This document shows, piece after piece, positions 12,243 to 17,207 of a DNA stretch of 27,185 nucleotides. Origin of the DNA: a virus. The stretch covers positions 1-27,185 of the IMG/VR virus record IMGVR_UViG_3300006917_000120. One strand, written 5' to 3'. Both the position numbers and the translations under genes were made by a program. How positions within the stretch are numbered: the stretch's first letter is position 1; the number at the start of each line of letters is the position of its first letter. The notes beneath the pieces were generated by a model. That model saw nothing but the letters and a program-made list of their open reading frames with translations, had not been told where the DNA came from and made no database searches.

Positions 12243-13214
12243 TTAGTTCTGGATACGGCCCTGGAACTGAGCGCCAGAGCTGGTGAGGTTGCCGGCCCAG
12301 GCCAGGATCTGCACTTCGGCGTCCTGGTTGATCGCGTAGCGACGGTTGGGCGACAACGGCACCATGTTGCGCTGAGCGTGCGGACGCCAGAACAGATACT
12401 TGGTGTTGAGGAAGAAGCCGGTGGACGCGGGGCAGTAGCCGCCGATACCACCGTCGAGCACCACGTCGGCGTCCATGAACTTCACGGTCGGGAAGCCCAG
12501 GTTGGCCGAGTTGGGATCGGTGAAGCGCTGGATGGCCTGCAGCGAACCCATGTAGTACGACCAGTAGACGGTGTCCAGCACGATCAGGTCGGGCCGGTCA
12601 GCGCCGCGCACGGTGTTGCCCCACAGGGTGTTCATCGCGGCCTGGATGGTGGTCGCGCTGGGGGTCACGCCTTGCACGCTGAAGTCGTACAGCTTGGAGC
12701 GCCAGAAGGTCCAGGTGGCGCGGTCGATGCCACCGTAGGTGCCGGTGGTGGGGTCAGAGGGAACAGCGGCGTTCAGGCCGGTGATCTCCTTGCCGCCCGA
12801 GCCGGTGCCGTCGGAGTACACCGACTGGGCCAGCTTGTTCATCATCGTGCTTTCGGCCACGTTCAGGCGGGCCTCCAGCAGGTCGATGAACTGCTCCTTG
12901 CCAGCGTTCTGCAGCATCTCCAGGCCAGAGATCACCACCGGGCAGGCGAGCTGCTTGATGTTGTACTCGGCGGCCGAGATGACGTCCTGAGCGGCCACCG
13001 GCAGCAGGTCGTAACCCGAGTAGAAGCCAGCGTTCGCGTTCTCAGCGAAGGACAGCTCCTGCAGGATCGTGTTGCCGCCGCTGATGGTCTTGACGTTGCC
13101 GCGCTGGTTCAGCTTGGCAAGCAGGGCGTTGTTCTTGGTGACGTTGTCCGCGATCTGACGCGAACGGGATTGGATAGTGGTGGCGACGATGTCGCTCACA
13201 TTCGGAAATGCCAT
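12243..13214 (-). CDS. Major capsid protein, HK97-fold type (323 aa)
   Basis: Main shell protein. The N-terminal helix (VSDIVATTIQSRSRQIADNV) leads into a strand region (GGNTILQELSFAENANAGFY), then the DLLPVAAQDVISAAEYNIKQ and PVVISGLEMLQNAGKEQF blocks that I associate with an HK97-like capsid family of podoviruses. The spine helix is probably residues 104-130. The C-terminal part (RPDLIVLDTVYWSYYMGSLQ, and RYAINQDAEVQILAWAGNL near the end) is typical of the A-domain and closing strands. GGAG lies 8 nt before the ATG. The gene sits directly after a scaffold-like gene, has an unusual 191-nt structured leader, and is followed by a strong terminator, all consistent with a highly expressed gene. 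No N-terminal prohead protease site is evident. Confidence 0.9.
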   Translation of the reverse strand: MAFPNVSDIVATTIQSRSRQIADNVTKNNALLAKLNQRGNVKTISGGNTILQELSFAENANAGFYSGYDLLPVAAQDVISAAEYNIKQLACPVVISGLEMLQNAGKEQFIDLLEARLNVAESTMMNKLAQSVYSDGTGSGGKEITGLNAAVPSDPTTGTYGGIDRATWTFWRSKLYDFSVQGVTPSATTIQAAMNTLWGNTVRGADRPDLIVLDTVYWSYYMGSLQAIQRFTDPNSANLGFPTVKFMDADVVLDGGIGGYCPASTGFFLNTKYLFWRPHAQRNMVPLSPNRRYAINQDAEVQILAWAGNLTSSGAQFQGRIQN

Positions 13215-13242
13215 GATGAAAGCTCCACAGAAAATTGGATTT

Positions 13243-13385
13243 GCGGCTGAGCCGCGCCAGTTTTGTGTGGCCTACGCAGACCTTCTCAGTCCGGCTTCGT
13301 CGTAGGTGGGAGCCTGGCGGCTCTCCTATGAGCTCTCGGTGGCTGTCGGTGCTTTGGGCACACGGGCGAGAGGTTTGCACCTCTC
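13243..13385 (-). ncRNA. Candidate structured RNA leader of the capsid gene
   Basis: The 191-nt gap between scaffold stop and capsid start codes no convincing protein and is full of stem-loops when read on the minus strand. In transcript order: a 7-bp stem closed by a GCAA (GNRA) tetraloop (13368-13385); a 4-bp GTGC/GCAC stem (13349-13361); a 7-bp stem with one G-U pair and a 4-nt loop (13308-13325); a 6-bp CCTACG/CGTAGG stem (13271-13276 with 13301-13306) enclosing a smaller hairpin; and a 4-bp GCGG/CCGC hairpin (13243-13255) just before the ribosome site. No stem is followed by a U-run. It could be an mRNA stabiliser, a processing site or a translational regulator. Structure is seen; function is inferred. 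Confidence 0.5.
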
Positions 13386-13405
13386 ACCATGTTGCGATTA
13401 GAACA

Positions 13406-14542
13406 TCACCGCGCCGACAGAGCAATTGCCTGCTCAATGGCAGAGCGCACGCTGTCAGGCTGCCCCCCCGCTGGTGCAGCCAGGGCCGGCGCACCGGACA
13501 CGCTCACTGCAGCCGCGCGGGCGCGCTGCGCTGCGCTGTTGCCCTGCTGAGCCTGGTTGGCCTTGGCGCGCTGCTGCAGCACCGAGCGCACGCGGGGGTT
13601 GGCCAGGCAGGCCTGCCGGTAAGCATCCTGCAGGCTGAGCTCGCGGCCACGCCGCTGGGCCACTTCCATCAGGTCGGCCATCTCCTCGCGCACGTCCTGG
13701 CCGAATTCAGCGCGCTCCAGAAAGCTCTCAACCTGCGTGCTCGCCTGGCTGGCCAGCTGCTGCTGCTGCATGGCCTGCGCCTGCTGGAACTGCGACATGA
13801 ACTGCTGCACCGGCGCGAGCTGTTGCTGCACGGCCTGCTGAAGCTGCATCTGCTGCTGATCGACCTGGGGCACCTGGCCGGCCAGCGCCGCGTCAAGCTG
13901 CTCGATGAAACTCTGGCCGAACCGGCCGACGCCGAACTGCTTGACCATGCCGGCCACCAGCTGCGCGAGCTCGGGCCCGGTGCCCGTGCGCAGCTTGACG
14001 GCCGTGGCCATCAGGTTGTCGATGGCCTGGATCGGCGTGGCGTTCTCGGCGCGGATGTAGGCCTCGTAGGGCGCGAACGCGCGTGAGTAGGCCTCGGCCA
14101 CCTTGCGGGCCTCGGACGTTTCCTGCAGTGTGCGCTGCACTTCCTGCTCGCGGCGCGCCACTTCGGCGCGCACGTCGGGCGGCAGCTTGCCCCAATGCTC
14201 GCGCACCTCGGGCCGCCAGGATGCCGGGGCCCGGTCCTGCTGCTGCTTGGGGCCCGACTTCGGTCCGGGTGTGATCTCCGTCACATTTTCGGCCTTGGCG
14301 AACTTGCCCTTCTCATCGCGCGGGCGGTCGGCCTTTTCGGCCAGCGCGTTCAGGTCAGCGTTCGCGCCTTCAGCCGGCGCATCGCCGGCCGGCATGTCCA
14401 GTGTGAGCTGGGGCTCTTCAGCCGCAACAGGTTGAGCCGGGGCCGATGAGGCTGCAGCTGGTGCCGCATCCGGTGCCGCCTCGGATGTCTCCATTGCCGA
14501 CGCGATGGCATCGCGCAGGTTCTCTGTGGTGGGTTCGTTCAT
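13406..14542 (-). CDS. Capsid scaffold protein (378 aa)
   Basis: Assembly scaffold placed just upstream of the capsid gene. The N-terminal 75 residues are disordered-looking and rich in Ala, Pro and Glu. After that comes a short basic segment with the frequent scaffold signature PRDEKGKFAKA, then ASWRPEVREHWGKLPPDVRA, a block I recognise from podovirus scaffolds. Long helices follow, including a Gln-rich coiled coil at about residues 230-280 (QQQMQLQQAVQQQLAP). The C-terminus is Ala/Ser-rich with a final amphipathic helix (SVRSAIEQAIALSAR) of the sort that contacts coat protein. The ATG at 14542 overlaps the previous stop as ATGA, so the 378-residue form is chosen over an upstream in-frame extension. 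Function inferred from motif pattern and location. Confidence 0.85.
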   Translation of the reverse strand: MNEPTTENLRDAIASAMETSEAAPDAAPAAASSAPAQPVAAEEPQLTLDMPAGDAPAEGANADLNALAEKADRPRDEKGKFAKAENVTEITPGPKSGPKQQQDRAPASWRPEVREHWGKLPPDVRAEVARREQEVQRTLQETSEARKVAEAYSRAFAPYEAYIRAENATPIQAIDNLMATAVKLRTGTGPELAQLVAGMVKQFGVGRFGQSFIEQLDAALAGQVPQVDQQQMQLQQAVQQQLAPVQQFMSQFQQAQAMQQQQLASQASTQVESFLERAEFGQDVREEMADLMEVAQRRGRELSLQDAYRQACLANPRVRSVLQQRAKANQAQQGNSAAQRARAAAVSVSGAPALAAPAGGQPDSVRSAIEQAIALSAR

Positions 14543-14868
14543 CGGTTTCTTTCTTGGAGTTTGTGGATGGCACGCTCGATGTCCTGGCGCCGGAACGTGC
14601 CACCTTGGGTGTACAAGCGCTCGCGCTCTTGCTTGGCCTTGGCCCAGGTTTCCTTGAAGTCGTCGGTCGTCGTCAACCCGGTGGCGCGCATGTAGTCGCG
14701 GTGCTTGGTGCGCGAGCTGATGTCGGTGCCGTCCGGTGCGCGCGCGCCGTCGTAGTTGCGGTCGCCCCACAGGGCGCCAGAGTCGGTGCGTAGCTCGGGC
14801 TGGTAATCGGGCGTCACCTCGATGAGCTCGCCCGTGACACGGTCCTGAATCCAGCGGCGTCGAGTCAT
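14539..14868 (-). CDS. Small conserved phage protein between portal and scaffold genes (109 aa)
   Basis: Unknown function. The N-terminus is basic (MTRRRWIQDRVTGELIEV). The centre (GALWGDRNYDGARAPDGTDI, then SSRTKHRDYMRATGL) keeps the SSR.KHR.(Y/H)(M/L)R motif that I associate with small proteins at this position in other podovirus head clusters. Several of those carry an N-terminal zinc ribbon; this one has no cysteine, so no such ribbon can form. The C-terminus is helical and charged. Start and stop both overlap their neighbours as ATGA, so it is translated as part of a tightly coupled trio with the 651-residue gene and the scaffold gene. Confidence 0.75.
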   Translation of the reverse strand: MTRRRWIQDRVTGELIEVTPDYQPELRTDSGALWGDRNYDGARAPDGTDISSRTKHRDYMRATGLTTTDDFKETWAKAKQERERLYTQGGTFRRQDIERAIHKLQERNR

Positions 14869-16820
14869 TCCTCTTCGTCCTTCTTGCGCAGTGCGTTGAT
14901 GAGTGCAGCCGCGCCACCAGCACCGGCTGCGGTCAGGGCCAGCGCGGCCGGGTCGGCGTAACCGTAGTACAGGCGGCGCCAGTCGGTGGGCGCAATCTTC
15001 ACGTCCTTGCCCGACTGGTAGTACCCGGCATCTTTGTGCGCCTGCAGCGAGTCCTGCAGCTCCGACCACGACGACCTCGGCAGCTTGCGGTAGTCGGGGT
15101 GCGCAAACTCATGCGGCTCGACGCGGCCACGGTACGTGTCCCACAGGCGCCACTGCTCGGGGAACAGCGGCAGGTCAGGGTTGGGCCCACGCGACTCGTC
15201 CACGTACTGCACCACCTTCTTGTAGAAGGGGTTGAAGTCGCTCACCACCTTGGGCTCGTAGGCCAGCTTGTCGGGGCTCAGCGACTCGGGCAAGCCCGGC
15301 GTGAGCTCGCCGGTCTTGGCGCTGCGGTAGACCTTGTTGGGCGTCGTGCCGCCAATGATGCTGATGGCCGACTCTTCGACCTTGCGGCCCATCTTCGGAT
15401 CCTGCGCGACGGCCGCGCGGATCGCGTCAGGGCCGGCGCCCCTCATGCCCGTCAAACCCGCCAGGCGCGAAGTGAACTCGGCGCCCACCTCAGGGTCGTC
15501 GAGCATGCGGTCGTAGTTCTTGCGGATCATCCACAGATCCACCGCGCTGGTGTTGCCCTTGTTCAGGTCCAGCCAGGGCGTGCCCAGCGAGGCCGTCTTT
15601 GACGACAGGCCCGGCACCTGGTTCATCACGCGGGTGGTCACGTCGCGCACCGTCTCGCTGCCCTGCGGCTGGAACATCTCCGGCTTCTTGCGGATCAGGT
15701 CGGCCATGATGGGCATGTTGCCCAGGTTGGCCGTGCCCAGCACGCCCATGCCGCCAGTGGTAGCCGCACCCACGCCGCCCTCCCTGGCCAACGCGCGGCC
15801 GATGCCTTCGCTGCCGGCGCGGTCGGCCAGCGCGTTGAGCTCGTCCTCGTTGCGCAGCCGGAAGCGCTGCGCCAGGAACTCGTTCTGCGTCAGCGGCGCG
15901 TTGGGCGATAGCAGCGCGAAGTTGAGTCGGTTGAAGGTATCGACCTTGTCGGGGTTGTCGATCTGGTACGTGCGCAAGAACTTCTGCATGAGCGCGTTGT
16001 GCGCCTCACGCGGCAGCGCCTCAGGGTCGAAGTTGTTGCCCTTGATGTAGAACAGGTCGGGGATCGTGAACTTGCCTTCCAGGCCGCCGGGGATCATCAC
16101 CTCGCGGCGCGTGTTGAGGTCACTGATGCCCAGCGAGCGCGGCTCGGACAGGCTCATGTCCACGCCGTGCTGCTTGCCCCAGTCGATCCACTCCTGCGAG
16201 CTCATCTCCTCGGGCCGCTTAGGCAGCACGCGGGGCTCGGTGCGCAGCTCAGCGCGCGCGATCAGCGCGTCATCCACGGCCGACTTCGGGATGGCCTTGG
16301 CAGCCTTGAAACCGGGGTCACTCAGGAACGACCGTGCGATGTCCTCCTCGCCGGCTTCCTTCACAGGTGCCACAGCCTTGGAGCTGCGCTCGATGGCATC
16401 GCCTTCGGCCTTGGCGCGCACGGCCTCAATGGCGCGCTCCTTCTGCTGGCCCTTGAGTTCAGCAAAGGCCTTGGACTTGCGCATGCGCTCTTCGGCCACG
16501 TCAGCCTTGCGCAGCGCCGCCACGGTGGCCTCGGTGGCGTTGCCGACGGCCTTGCCCGCCTGGCGCGCCTTGTTGGCCGCCAACGGCAGACCACCGACCA
16601 CCGGCAGCATGCCGGCAGCCGACAACGTCATTCCCAGGTAGTCGCGGTCGCGCCGGGCGCGCTCGTAGTCGCGTGCGGCCAGCGCCGTGCCCACCACCGG
16701 CAGCAACCCGTAGCCGACGTCCTGCGCGGTATCGACCAGGTCAGCGTCGGCCGGCGTGTCCAGGGACACGAACTTGCGTGCGCGGTTGCGAAGCGCGTCA
16801 ATGTACGAACCGACGTCCAT
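14865..16820 (-). CDS. Large protein of unknown function in the head cluster, DUF7178-like (651 aa)
   Basis: No named function. Residues of about 35-85 are a Gly/Ala/Leu/Val-rich segment (GYGLLPVVGTALAARDYERA, then LGMTLSAAGMLPVVGGLPLA) that looks membrane-active. Residues 90-150 are a charged helix. The central part contains GLSSKTASLGTPWLDLNKGN followed by DLWMIRKNYD, a pattern I associate with DUF7178-like regions in large phage proteins. Near the end are RGRVEPHEFAHPDYRKLP and a hydrophobic helix of about 20 residues (residues about 622-641, ALALTAAGAGGAAALINAL) followed by a charged tail. GAGG lies 7 nt before the ATG. Hydrophobic segments at both ends suggest a virion protein delivered at infection, but it sits among assembly genes rather than with the other ejection proteins. 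The family name is from memory and uncertain. Confidence 0.7.
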   Translation of the reverse strand: MDVGSYIDALRNRARKFVSLDTPADADLVDTAQDVGYGLLPVVGTALAARDYERARRDRDYLGMTLSAAGMLPVVGGLPLAANKARQAGKAVGNATEATVAALRKADVAEERMRKSKAFAELKGQQKERAIEAVRAKAEGDAIERSSKAVAPVKEAGEEDIARSFLSDPGFKAAKAIPKSAVDDALIARAELRTEPRVLPKRPEEMSSQEWIDWGKQHGVDMSLSEPRSLGISDLNTRREVMIPGGLEGKFTIPDLFYIKGNNFDPEALPREAHNALMQKFLRTYQIDNPDKVDTFNRLNFALLSPNAPLTQNEFLAQRFRLRNEDELNALADRAGSEGIGRALAREGGVGAATTGGMGVLGTANLGNMPIMADLIRKKPEMFQPQGSETVRDVTTRVMNQVPGLSSKTASLGTPWLDLNKGNTSAVDLWMIRKNYDRMLDDPEVGAEFTSRLAGLTGMRGAGPDAIRAAVAQDPKMGRKVEESAISIIGGTTPNKVYRSAKTGELTPGLPESLSPDKLAYEPKVVSDFNPFYKKVVQYVDESRGPNPDLPLFPEQWRLWDTYRGRVEPHEFAHPDYRKLPRSSWSELQDSLQAHKDAGYYQSGKDVKIAPTDWRRLYYGYADPAALALTAAGAGGAAALINALRKKDEEE

Positions 16821-16829
16821 CCCTGAACC

Positions 16830-17207
16830 TCACTTGAGGAATTTGAGCTTGTACAGCGTGGACTCGTAGGTGCCCACGATCTCGTCGATCACGTTGTGCA
16901 GCGACGACAGCTTGCGCGGCACCATCTCGTCGCGGCAGTCGTCGATGTACTCCATCATTTCGCGCAGCACGGGCTCGATGTCGCCCTCGTACTCGTTGTC
17001 CAGCAGCGGCACCTCCAGCAGCTCACCGTAGCGGCCCTGGTACTGCTCCGCGAACTTGTCCGCGAGCTTGGTGATGCCCTCGTAAAACTCACCCAGCGCC
17101 ACGTGTTTGGCATACGCACCCGGTCCCTTGGCCTTCAGGTGCGCCTTGTGCGCCAGGTCGCGCGCCAGGAACAGCAGACCCACGAATTCGCCAGCGTTCA
17201 TCGCCAT
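16830..17207 (-). CDS. Small all-helical phage protein, ferritin/Dps-like pattern (125 aa)
   Basis: Conserved helical protein found beside portal genes. The sequence matches a pattern known from phage families such as DUF5856: LARDLAHKAHLKA, then AKHVALGEFYEGITKLADKF, AEQYQGRYG, and a C-terminal IDEIVGTYESTLYKLKFLK. The spacing of His, Glu and Asp residues in the first two helices resembles a small four-helix bundle of the ferritin/Dps type. Iron binding cannot be claimed from this sequence. GAGG lies 6 nt before the chosen ATG at 17207; a second in-frame ATG is at 17201. It lies 8 nt after the portal stop. Function unknown. Confidence 0.75.
   Translation of the reverse strand: MAMNAGEFVGLLFLARDLAHKAHLKAKGPGAYAKHVALGEFYEGITKLADKFAEQYQGRYGELLEVPLLDNEYEGDIEPVLREMMEYIDDCRDEMVPRKLSSLHNVIDEIVGTYESTLYKLKFLK

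Follow-up and report, generated by a model that had tools for sequence, protein, structure and literature searches.

The window analysed here, a 27,185-nt stretch of viral DNA (IMG/VR record IMGVR_UViG_3300006917_000120, positions 1 to 27,185), contains an exceptionally long gap directly upstream of its major capsid gene, raising the question of what this interval does for the gene that follows it. The preliminary description of this DNA had called the gap unusual for the late operon and had proposed that it encodes a cis-acting RNA, namely an mRNA stabiliser, an RNase processing site or a translational switch. From the stop codon of the ORF in the scaffold position (13408-13406) to the capsid ATG (13214), we measured exactly the 191 nt that had been reported (13215-13405, minus strand), while neighbouring late genes either overlap or are separated by 2, 15, 25 and 89 nt.

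The downstream gene (12243-13214, minus strand) encodes a 323-aa protein that matches phrog_9953, major head protein, with an E-value of 4.6e-115 and is 63.9% identical to the major head protein of Myxococcus phage Mx8. The upstream gene (13406-14542, minus strand; 378 aa) has no match in Pfam or PHROG and is named scaffold only by its position between the portal-side genes and the capsid gene. A 651-aa ORF without a PHROG match (14865-16820, minus strand) occupies the interval from the portal-side genes to the scaffold-position gene, and a 125-aa protein matching DUF5856 and the PHROG 'starvation-inducible transcriptional regulator' is encoded between the portal gene and this ORF (16830-17207, minus strand).

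Fold of the leader and its conservation among relatives

Comparison with shuffled controls, a check suggested in the preliminary description, favoured a stable fold. For the minus-strand RNA of the gap, the predicted folding energy was -77.2 kcal/mol, whereas dinucleotide shuffles gave -56.8 +/- 4.3 (z = -4.76, none of 200 shuffles being as good); for the RNA that begins at the predicted start site and extends into the capsid gene, it was -90.9 against -65.0 (z = -5.74). The helices of the preliminary description were recovered, although they are nested and not, as it had stated, five in succession: P1/P2 lie 5' of a long-range helix, P3, which forms at the Shine-Dalgarno sequence and encloses P4, P5/P6 and P7. 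At the gathering threshold of Rfam 15, which covers riboswitches, ribozymes, HEARO and phage RNAs, neither the window leader nor 17 further loci spanning other leader types were matched, and the weak matches of the leader comprised just one snoRNA, attributable to chance. Likenesses to TPP riboswitches (CUGAGA, GCGUAGG) and, in locus L077, to hammerhead ribozymes (CUGAUGA) were dropped on sight for unsuitable spacing and partners, Rfam giving no match for either. A scan of the window's minus strand for intrinsic terminators or attenuators, taken as GC-rich hairpins with a T-run behind them in that strand, found none. On the plus strand, the apical part of P7 yields one terminator-like hairpin with a T-run (13242-13256), which is at chance level (1 found, 1.5 expected).

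Capsid searches for relatives retrieved at least 80 loci per search, most of which have a gap of 165-210 nt with common conserved blocks, hereafter leader type A. A three-block pattern had 170 capsid-linked occurrences (overlapping loci counted); pattern matches without a capsid gene looked like chance, and full-length matches with a downstream homologue were all upstream of this capsid gene. Among 85,000 bacterial and archaeal genomes, the pattern search gave 71 matches, all of them apparently chance except a capsid-linked one in a Brevundimonas bin. In total, at least 64 distinct related phages have a type A leader, invariably before the capsid gene.

For the covariance model that the preliminary description had recommended, 64 non-redundant type A members were aligned and 66 sequences were realigned to the resulting model. 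In this alignment, which is fitted to the model and hence biased towards the modelled structure, paired cells amounted to 81.5%, against 68.2% with shuffled partners and 35-46% with the structure slid, 33 of 47 pairs had changed on both sides, and the covariation score was 0.356, compared with 0.146 for shuffled partners and at most 0.108 for slid structures. The changes on both sides are located in P1, P3, P4, P5 and the apical part of P7, and P2 and P6 are nearly invariant. An alignment-free strand-swap test gave z-values of -15 for P1 and P4 (-15.2 each), -11.9 for P3, -6.8 for P7 and -3.4 for P5 and nothing for P6; for this test as for the covariation statistics, the shuffles do not keep phylogeny.

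Hairpin P1 (ACAUGGUGAGAGG/CCUCUCGCCCGUGU; 13360-13392, minus strand, as are all leader elements below) has changed on both sides in all nine upper pairs. It includes the 7-bp GCAA-capped stem noted previously (GAGAGGU-GCAA-ACCUCUC), but the emphasis laid on the GNRA tetraloop was misplaced: the cap is GNRA in 33 of 64 relatives and UNCG, CUYG or another loop in the rest, which rules it out as a conserved tertiary contact and leaves it as one of several stable caps. P2 (GUGUGCCCAAAGCAC; 13349-13363) is a short hairpin that overlaps the P1 base and is nearly invariant, without covariation. The 5' strand of P3 (GAGAGCUC; 13330-13337), the partner of the Shine-Dalgarno region, has seven of eight pairs changed on both sides, and the P4 hairpin (13303-13328) all eight, with 94-99% of sequences paired. 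The P5/P6 hairpin (13271-13306) combines CCUACG (13306-13301)/CGUAGG (13276-13271) with CGGAC/GUCUG, and its ACG/CGU pairs in P5 are 90% paired with changes on both sides. P7 (CCACA...UGUGG; 13225-13270) is a long imperfect hairpin ending on the Shine-Dalgarno sequence, in which CACA/UGUG is swapped for CAUCUGA/UCAGAUG in other relatives.

Leaderless relatives also exist. The five closest (L353, L375, L380, L396 and L405) form one clade with 8-9 nt between scaffold and capsid genes and capsids about 75% identical, a natural deletion, so that this capsid type can do without the leader. A comparison of scaffold proteins between leader-bearing and leaderless phages revealed no decisive difference. 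The absence of the leader from relatives, which the preliminary description had regarded as contrary evidence, is seen in this clade, against at least 64 carriers. With the same place in relatives, compensatory changes and no match elsewhere, the comparative evidence strongly supports the leader as a real, evolutionarily conserved, folded cis-acting RNA, as had been proposed.

The leader also appears to have its own promoter. The scaffold-position TGA is followed by an extended -10 element, TG-T-TCTAAT (13397-13408 with the stop codon, hexamer 13402-13397), recognised from the sequence and from relatives. The window's own hexamer, with C at position 2, is weak and non-consensus and was missed by a simple scan; in 53 of 61 type A leaders, an extended -10 (TGnTATAAT-like) is found at +5/+6 from the start of the scaffold stop, with a mean score of 5.87 versus -0.6 in control windows, and the TG is retained even in phages whose scaffold stop is TAA. 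A weak -35-like hexamer, TTGCTC (13420-13425), lies 17 nt before the -10 and overlaps the end of the scaffold-position gene; relatives have ATTGCGA/TTGC.. at equal spacing, but this region is coding DNA. RNA synthesis is predicted to start at ~13390, at the P1 base. Because the conserved extended -10 promoter sits at the scaffold stop codon, the RNA would be a 5' leader beginning at hairpin P1.

Promoters were found in other leader types too, including TTGACA-17-TAGAAT in Stenotrophomonas phage BUCT555 (L419) and, in L400, TTGAAG-17-TATAAC downstream of a terminator-like hairpin. In the 141-nt pre-capsid gap of BUCT555, no A/CCA module (see below) was found, and the spacer region of the promoter is an inverted repeat (ACACGGCC..GGCCGTGT). 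Four loci of leader type D (L400, L401, L398 and L390) have a terminator-like hairpin in the pre-capsid gap, and the L400 promoter is near the sigma70 consensus, so the capsid gene may be a separate transcription unit in these loci.

A recurrent A/CCA internal loop and masking of the Shine-Dalgarno sequence

Among the columns that do not vary in type A are GUG and C of P1/P2, CAGCCACC, GA of GGAG, CCAC and CGGACUG. Apart from P1/P2 and a few single bases, the invariant columns amount to two nested asymmetric internal loops in which A lies opposite CCA. The outer module, M1, is CAG-CCA-CCG...CGG-A-CUG (5' strand 13337-13345, invariant; 3' strand 13287-13293, invariant in 66 of 66 sequences), and the inner module, M2, is AGG-A-[hairpin]-CCA-CCU, which in the window is the P4 hairpin UAGG-A-GAGCC(GCCA)GGCUC-CCA-CCUA. 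The P5/P6 hairpin overlaps bases of both modules and would therefore be an alternative pairing; P5 covaries and M1 is invariant.

By k-mer clustering, 14 further leader clusters were split from type A among the relatives, and the same loop is found there in other helices: CCGGA-A-GCC..GGC-CCA-UCCGG in type E, AGCGAG-A-GC..GC-CCA-CUCGCU in Mx8, UUGUGCG-CCA-CCGC..GCGG-A-CGUGCAA in L411 and GUUAUG-CCA-UCUGCGCC..GGUGCAGA-A-CAUGAU in L358. Loop counts were 161 in type A, 29 in type B and 26 in the rest, compared with 8.8, 1.9 and 1.9, respectively, in dinucleotide shuffles. When all possible 1x3 loops were surveyed without bias, CCA/A was present in 12 of 16 mutually unrelated leader groups, the runner-up being present in 6. 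Module density was 0.88 per locus in the 250 nt before the capsid gene, at most 0.1 elsewhere in sense and 0 in antisense before the capsid gene; since the module is restricted to the sense strand, it would act as RNA and not as DNA. Type D leaders, some of which are detected by the type A covariance model (E = 4e-6 to 1e-5), also have nested M1 and M2, with GAG-CCA-CC and CUC in place of CAG/CUG, which provides indirect compensatory support for M1, a module that is invariant and without covariation within type A. The loop is thus a sequence-specific motif that recurs in varied helices, as expected of a protein-binding operator. The literature found on the C-loop, considered as an established name for the A/CCA loop, gave no consensus for comparison.

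The Shine-Dalgarno sequence GGAG (13226-13223) overlaps the 3' strand of P3 (GAGCUUUC, 13225-13218; together 13218-13226). P3 pairs GGAG and the bases that follow and is kept with compensation in essentially all 64 relatives, as in AAAUGCUCC/GGAGCAUUU (L315), AUGACUC/GAGUCAU (L321), GAUGAG/CUCAUC (L271) and GAAACUC/GAGUUUC (L052). The median predicted probability that the Shine-Dalgarno sequence is unpaired was 0.02 in native leaders, 0.29 with a shuffled upstream leader and 0.35 with M1 enforced, the last figure meaning merely that M1 and P3 do not nest, because folding programs exclude pseudoknots. GGACUCC, the 3' strand of M1 in type D, complements the Shine-Dalgarno sequence GGAGUC; in type B, as read by eye from the sequences, A-CAUGAUC, the 3' strand of the module, pairs with the GAUCAUG that immediately precedes GAG. 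Module formation thus competes with Shine-Dalgarno masking in three leader classes, which slightly favours activation over repression upon binding. A type A pseudoknot with both M1 and P3 formed is possible and would make binding repressive.

Among the three functions suggested in the preliminary description, the translational switch fits best, given the covarying helix that masks the Shine-Dalgarno sequence; a stabilising role of the 5'-terminal hairpin is plausible with a predicted start at the P1 base, and an RNase processing site found no specific support. The promoter, the repeated A/CCA loop and the connection with HNH endonuclease genes had escaped the preliminary description. From the structure, masking helix, modules, position and promoter consensus documented above, we infer a binding factor, its identity and a direction of control. 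The leader is probably a translational control element: its A/CCA loops would be bound by a factor, a head-assembly protein being the likeliest, which alters how far the Shine-Dalgarno sequence is exposed. The folded 5' leader would form a capsid-specific transcription and translation unit together with the extended -10 promoter of the sigma70 type and the capsid gene, in which the leader RNA would occlude the capsid Shine-Dalgarno sequence between P3 and P7 and the P5/P6 hairpin would compete with the two nested A/CCA copies. Binding of the factor, presumably the capsid or scaffold protein, to the modules would change Shine-Dalgarno exposure, with activation slightly preferred to repression, and capsid synthesis would thereby be tied to assembly. 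A head-assembly protein would be the simplest choice of factor, given that the loops accompany this capsid gene across many leader scaffolds.

The main competing explanation is a passive leader that boosts expression by its own promoter and a 5'-terminal hairpin protecting against mRNA decay, with no specific factor and with the other helices just blocking RNase access. The capsid is the most abundant protein, the predicted start lies at the P1 base and P1 is often capped by stable tetraloops, all of which would suit such a leader; we nevertheless consider it unlikely, as it leaves unexplained the two invariant nested modules, the loop common to unrelated leaders and the conserved helix that hides the Shine-Dalgarno sequence. 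The T7 gene 10 leader, the precedent for this explanation, is short and promotes translation (PMC8748333). It resembles the present case in that a promoter and a structured 5' leader directly precede the major capsid gene, but the window leader is ~180 nt long, covaries, hides the Shine-Dalgarno sequence and contains repeated A/CCA loops. A model for the possible mode of action of translational control by the capsid leader is the com-mom system of phage Mu, in which a translation inhibition structure lies beside a small protein-recognised hairpin and binding of Com activates translation (PMC6483171). Both are cases of masking in phage mRNA; however, Com reads a hairpin-loop sequence, whereas the conserved part of the capsid leader is an internal loop and the gene is the capsid gene. 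The scanned window proteins included no Com homologue.

Phage leaders that mask a ribosome-binding site are therefore already known as a kind, and the RNA family is new: the leader family, the recurrent loop and the HNH connection described below were not found in Rfam or in the freely accessible journal literature searched. In tailed dsDNA phages, production of the capsid protein is commonly regarded as plain, strong late expression, and the leader suggests an unreported way of controlling it. If this is true, a Shine-Dalgarno-masking leader with loops resembling protein sites makes capsid output a regulated step and provides a concrete, mutable operator with which the regulator can be sought.

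HNH endonuclease genes at the leader position

In several relatives, the leader position is filled by an HNH ORF of ~195-200 aa, whose weak match to HNH is its sole Pfam match, and the promoter is retained. An A/CCA hairpin (gcg-CCA-ucccg..cggga-A-cgc) is present at one fixed position in all 13 of the HNH genes tested with a capsid gene directly downstream, and most of these genes have a second one (ccuaag-A-ggc..gcc-CCA-cuuggg). Synonymous codon shuffling predicts 0.2-0.5 modules per gene, whereas each HNH mRNA contains 1-3, mostly in fixed places and with compensatory variation in the stems. Alignments with HNH coding DNA scored higher than all shuffled controls for several type B leaders (best score 51 versus at most 32), which, as judged from these alignments, are decayed HNH genes; the homology is visible by direct alignment only, nhmmer searches of HNH against the leaders giving no match in any. 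No HNH homology was seen by alignment in type A beyond P2 or in types D and E, and a derivation of type A from HNH coding DNA is unsupported beyond the promoter and the P1/P2 region. In the capsid tree, an HNH gene in one phage can be replaced by a type A leader in a close relative (L305/L306, L056/L052 and L063/L068). Outside the leader, a partial HNH-like frame (45% identical) is present at L043:1641-1844 (minus strand) and L137:13028-13231, in a phage with a type A leader.

Tentatively, and with somewhat less than even confidence, we suggest that the A/CCA module has spread to, or been re-created in, unrelated capsid leaders and the HNH gene, and that a decayed HNH mRNA was kept as a capsid leader, turning a selfish gene into an RNA that controls translation and is recognised by a head protein of the phage. 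This would be a rare, sequence-documented route from a homing endonuclease gene to a host regulatory RNA. Phage T4 offers a partial parallel, its homing endonuclease genes, I-TevI among others, having a promoter of their own and a ribosome-binding site that is hidden in RNA structure, and its free-standing endonuclease genes adjoining structural genes (PMC2988022). The T4 structure, however, controls the endonuclease, whereas here a module shared with the endonuclease mRNA precedes the capsid gene and persists after endonuclease loss. HEARO and OMEGA are likewise structured RNAs associated with an HNH ORF, of which ORF-less copies exist. The capsid leader shares the HNH association but differs in having no Rfam 15 match, in an HNH protein of ~195 aa with HNH as its only Pfam match, and in modules that lie inside the coding region.

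The same observations could mean that the leader is a remnant or vehicle of an HNH homing element, with homing re-installing the sequence and the modules serving the HNH gene, for example its own translation, and not the capsid gene. The ORFs exactly at the leader position with the promoter kept, the type B alignments, the excess of modules in HNH mRNAs and the exchange of HNH genes and type A leaders between near-identical capsids all accord with this. We regard it as improbable even so: phages with a leader only and no HNH gene in the available DNA, such as that of the 27-kb window, preserve pairing by compensation, and the persistence of compensatory change in HNH-less DNA indicates selection on the RNA itself; moreover, HNH homology is absent from types D and E and, past P2, from type A.

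An action in trans, with A/CCA hairpins nucleating capsid or scaffold assembly like the coat-protein sites of RNA phages, would explain why a leader contains the same small hairpin motif several times, but is very improbable given the leaderless relatives and the tight link to the Shine-Dalgarno sequence, which indicates cis control. A metabolite riboswitch, despite conserved junction bases and a competing hairpin, is equally hard to credit, as a simple internal loop that is repeated across scaffolds before a single gene and has no Rfam match suits a protein site better than a ligand pocket.

Both arrangements of the capsid locus also occur on one 71-kb contig, IMGVR_UViG_3300047554_000338 (L431 and L010/L328), where one capsid gene lies behind an HNH gene and another behind a type A leader; this contig possibly represents two related phages joined in assembly.
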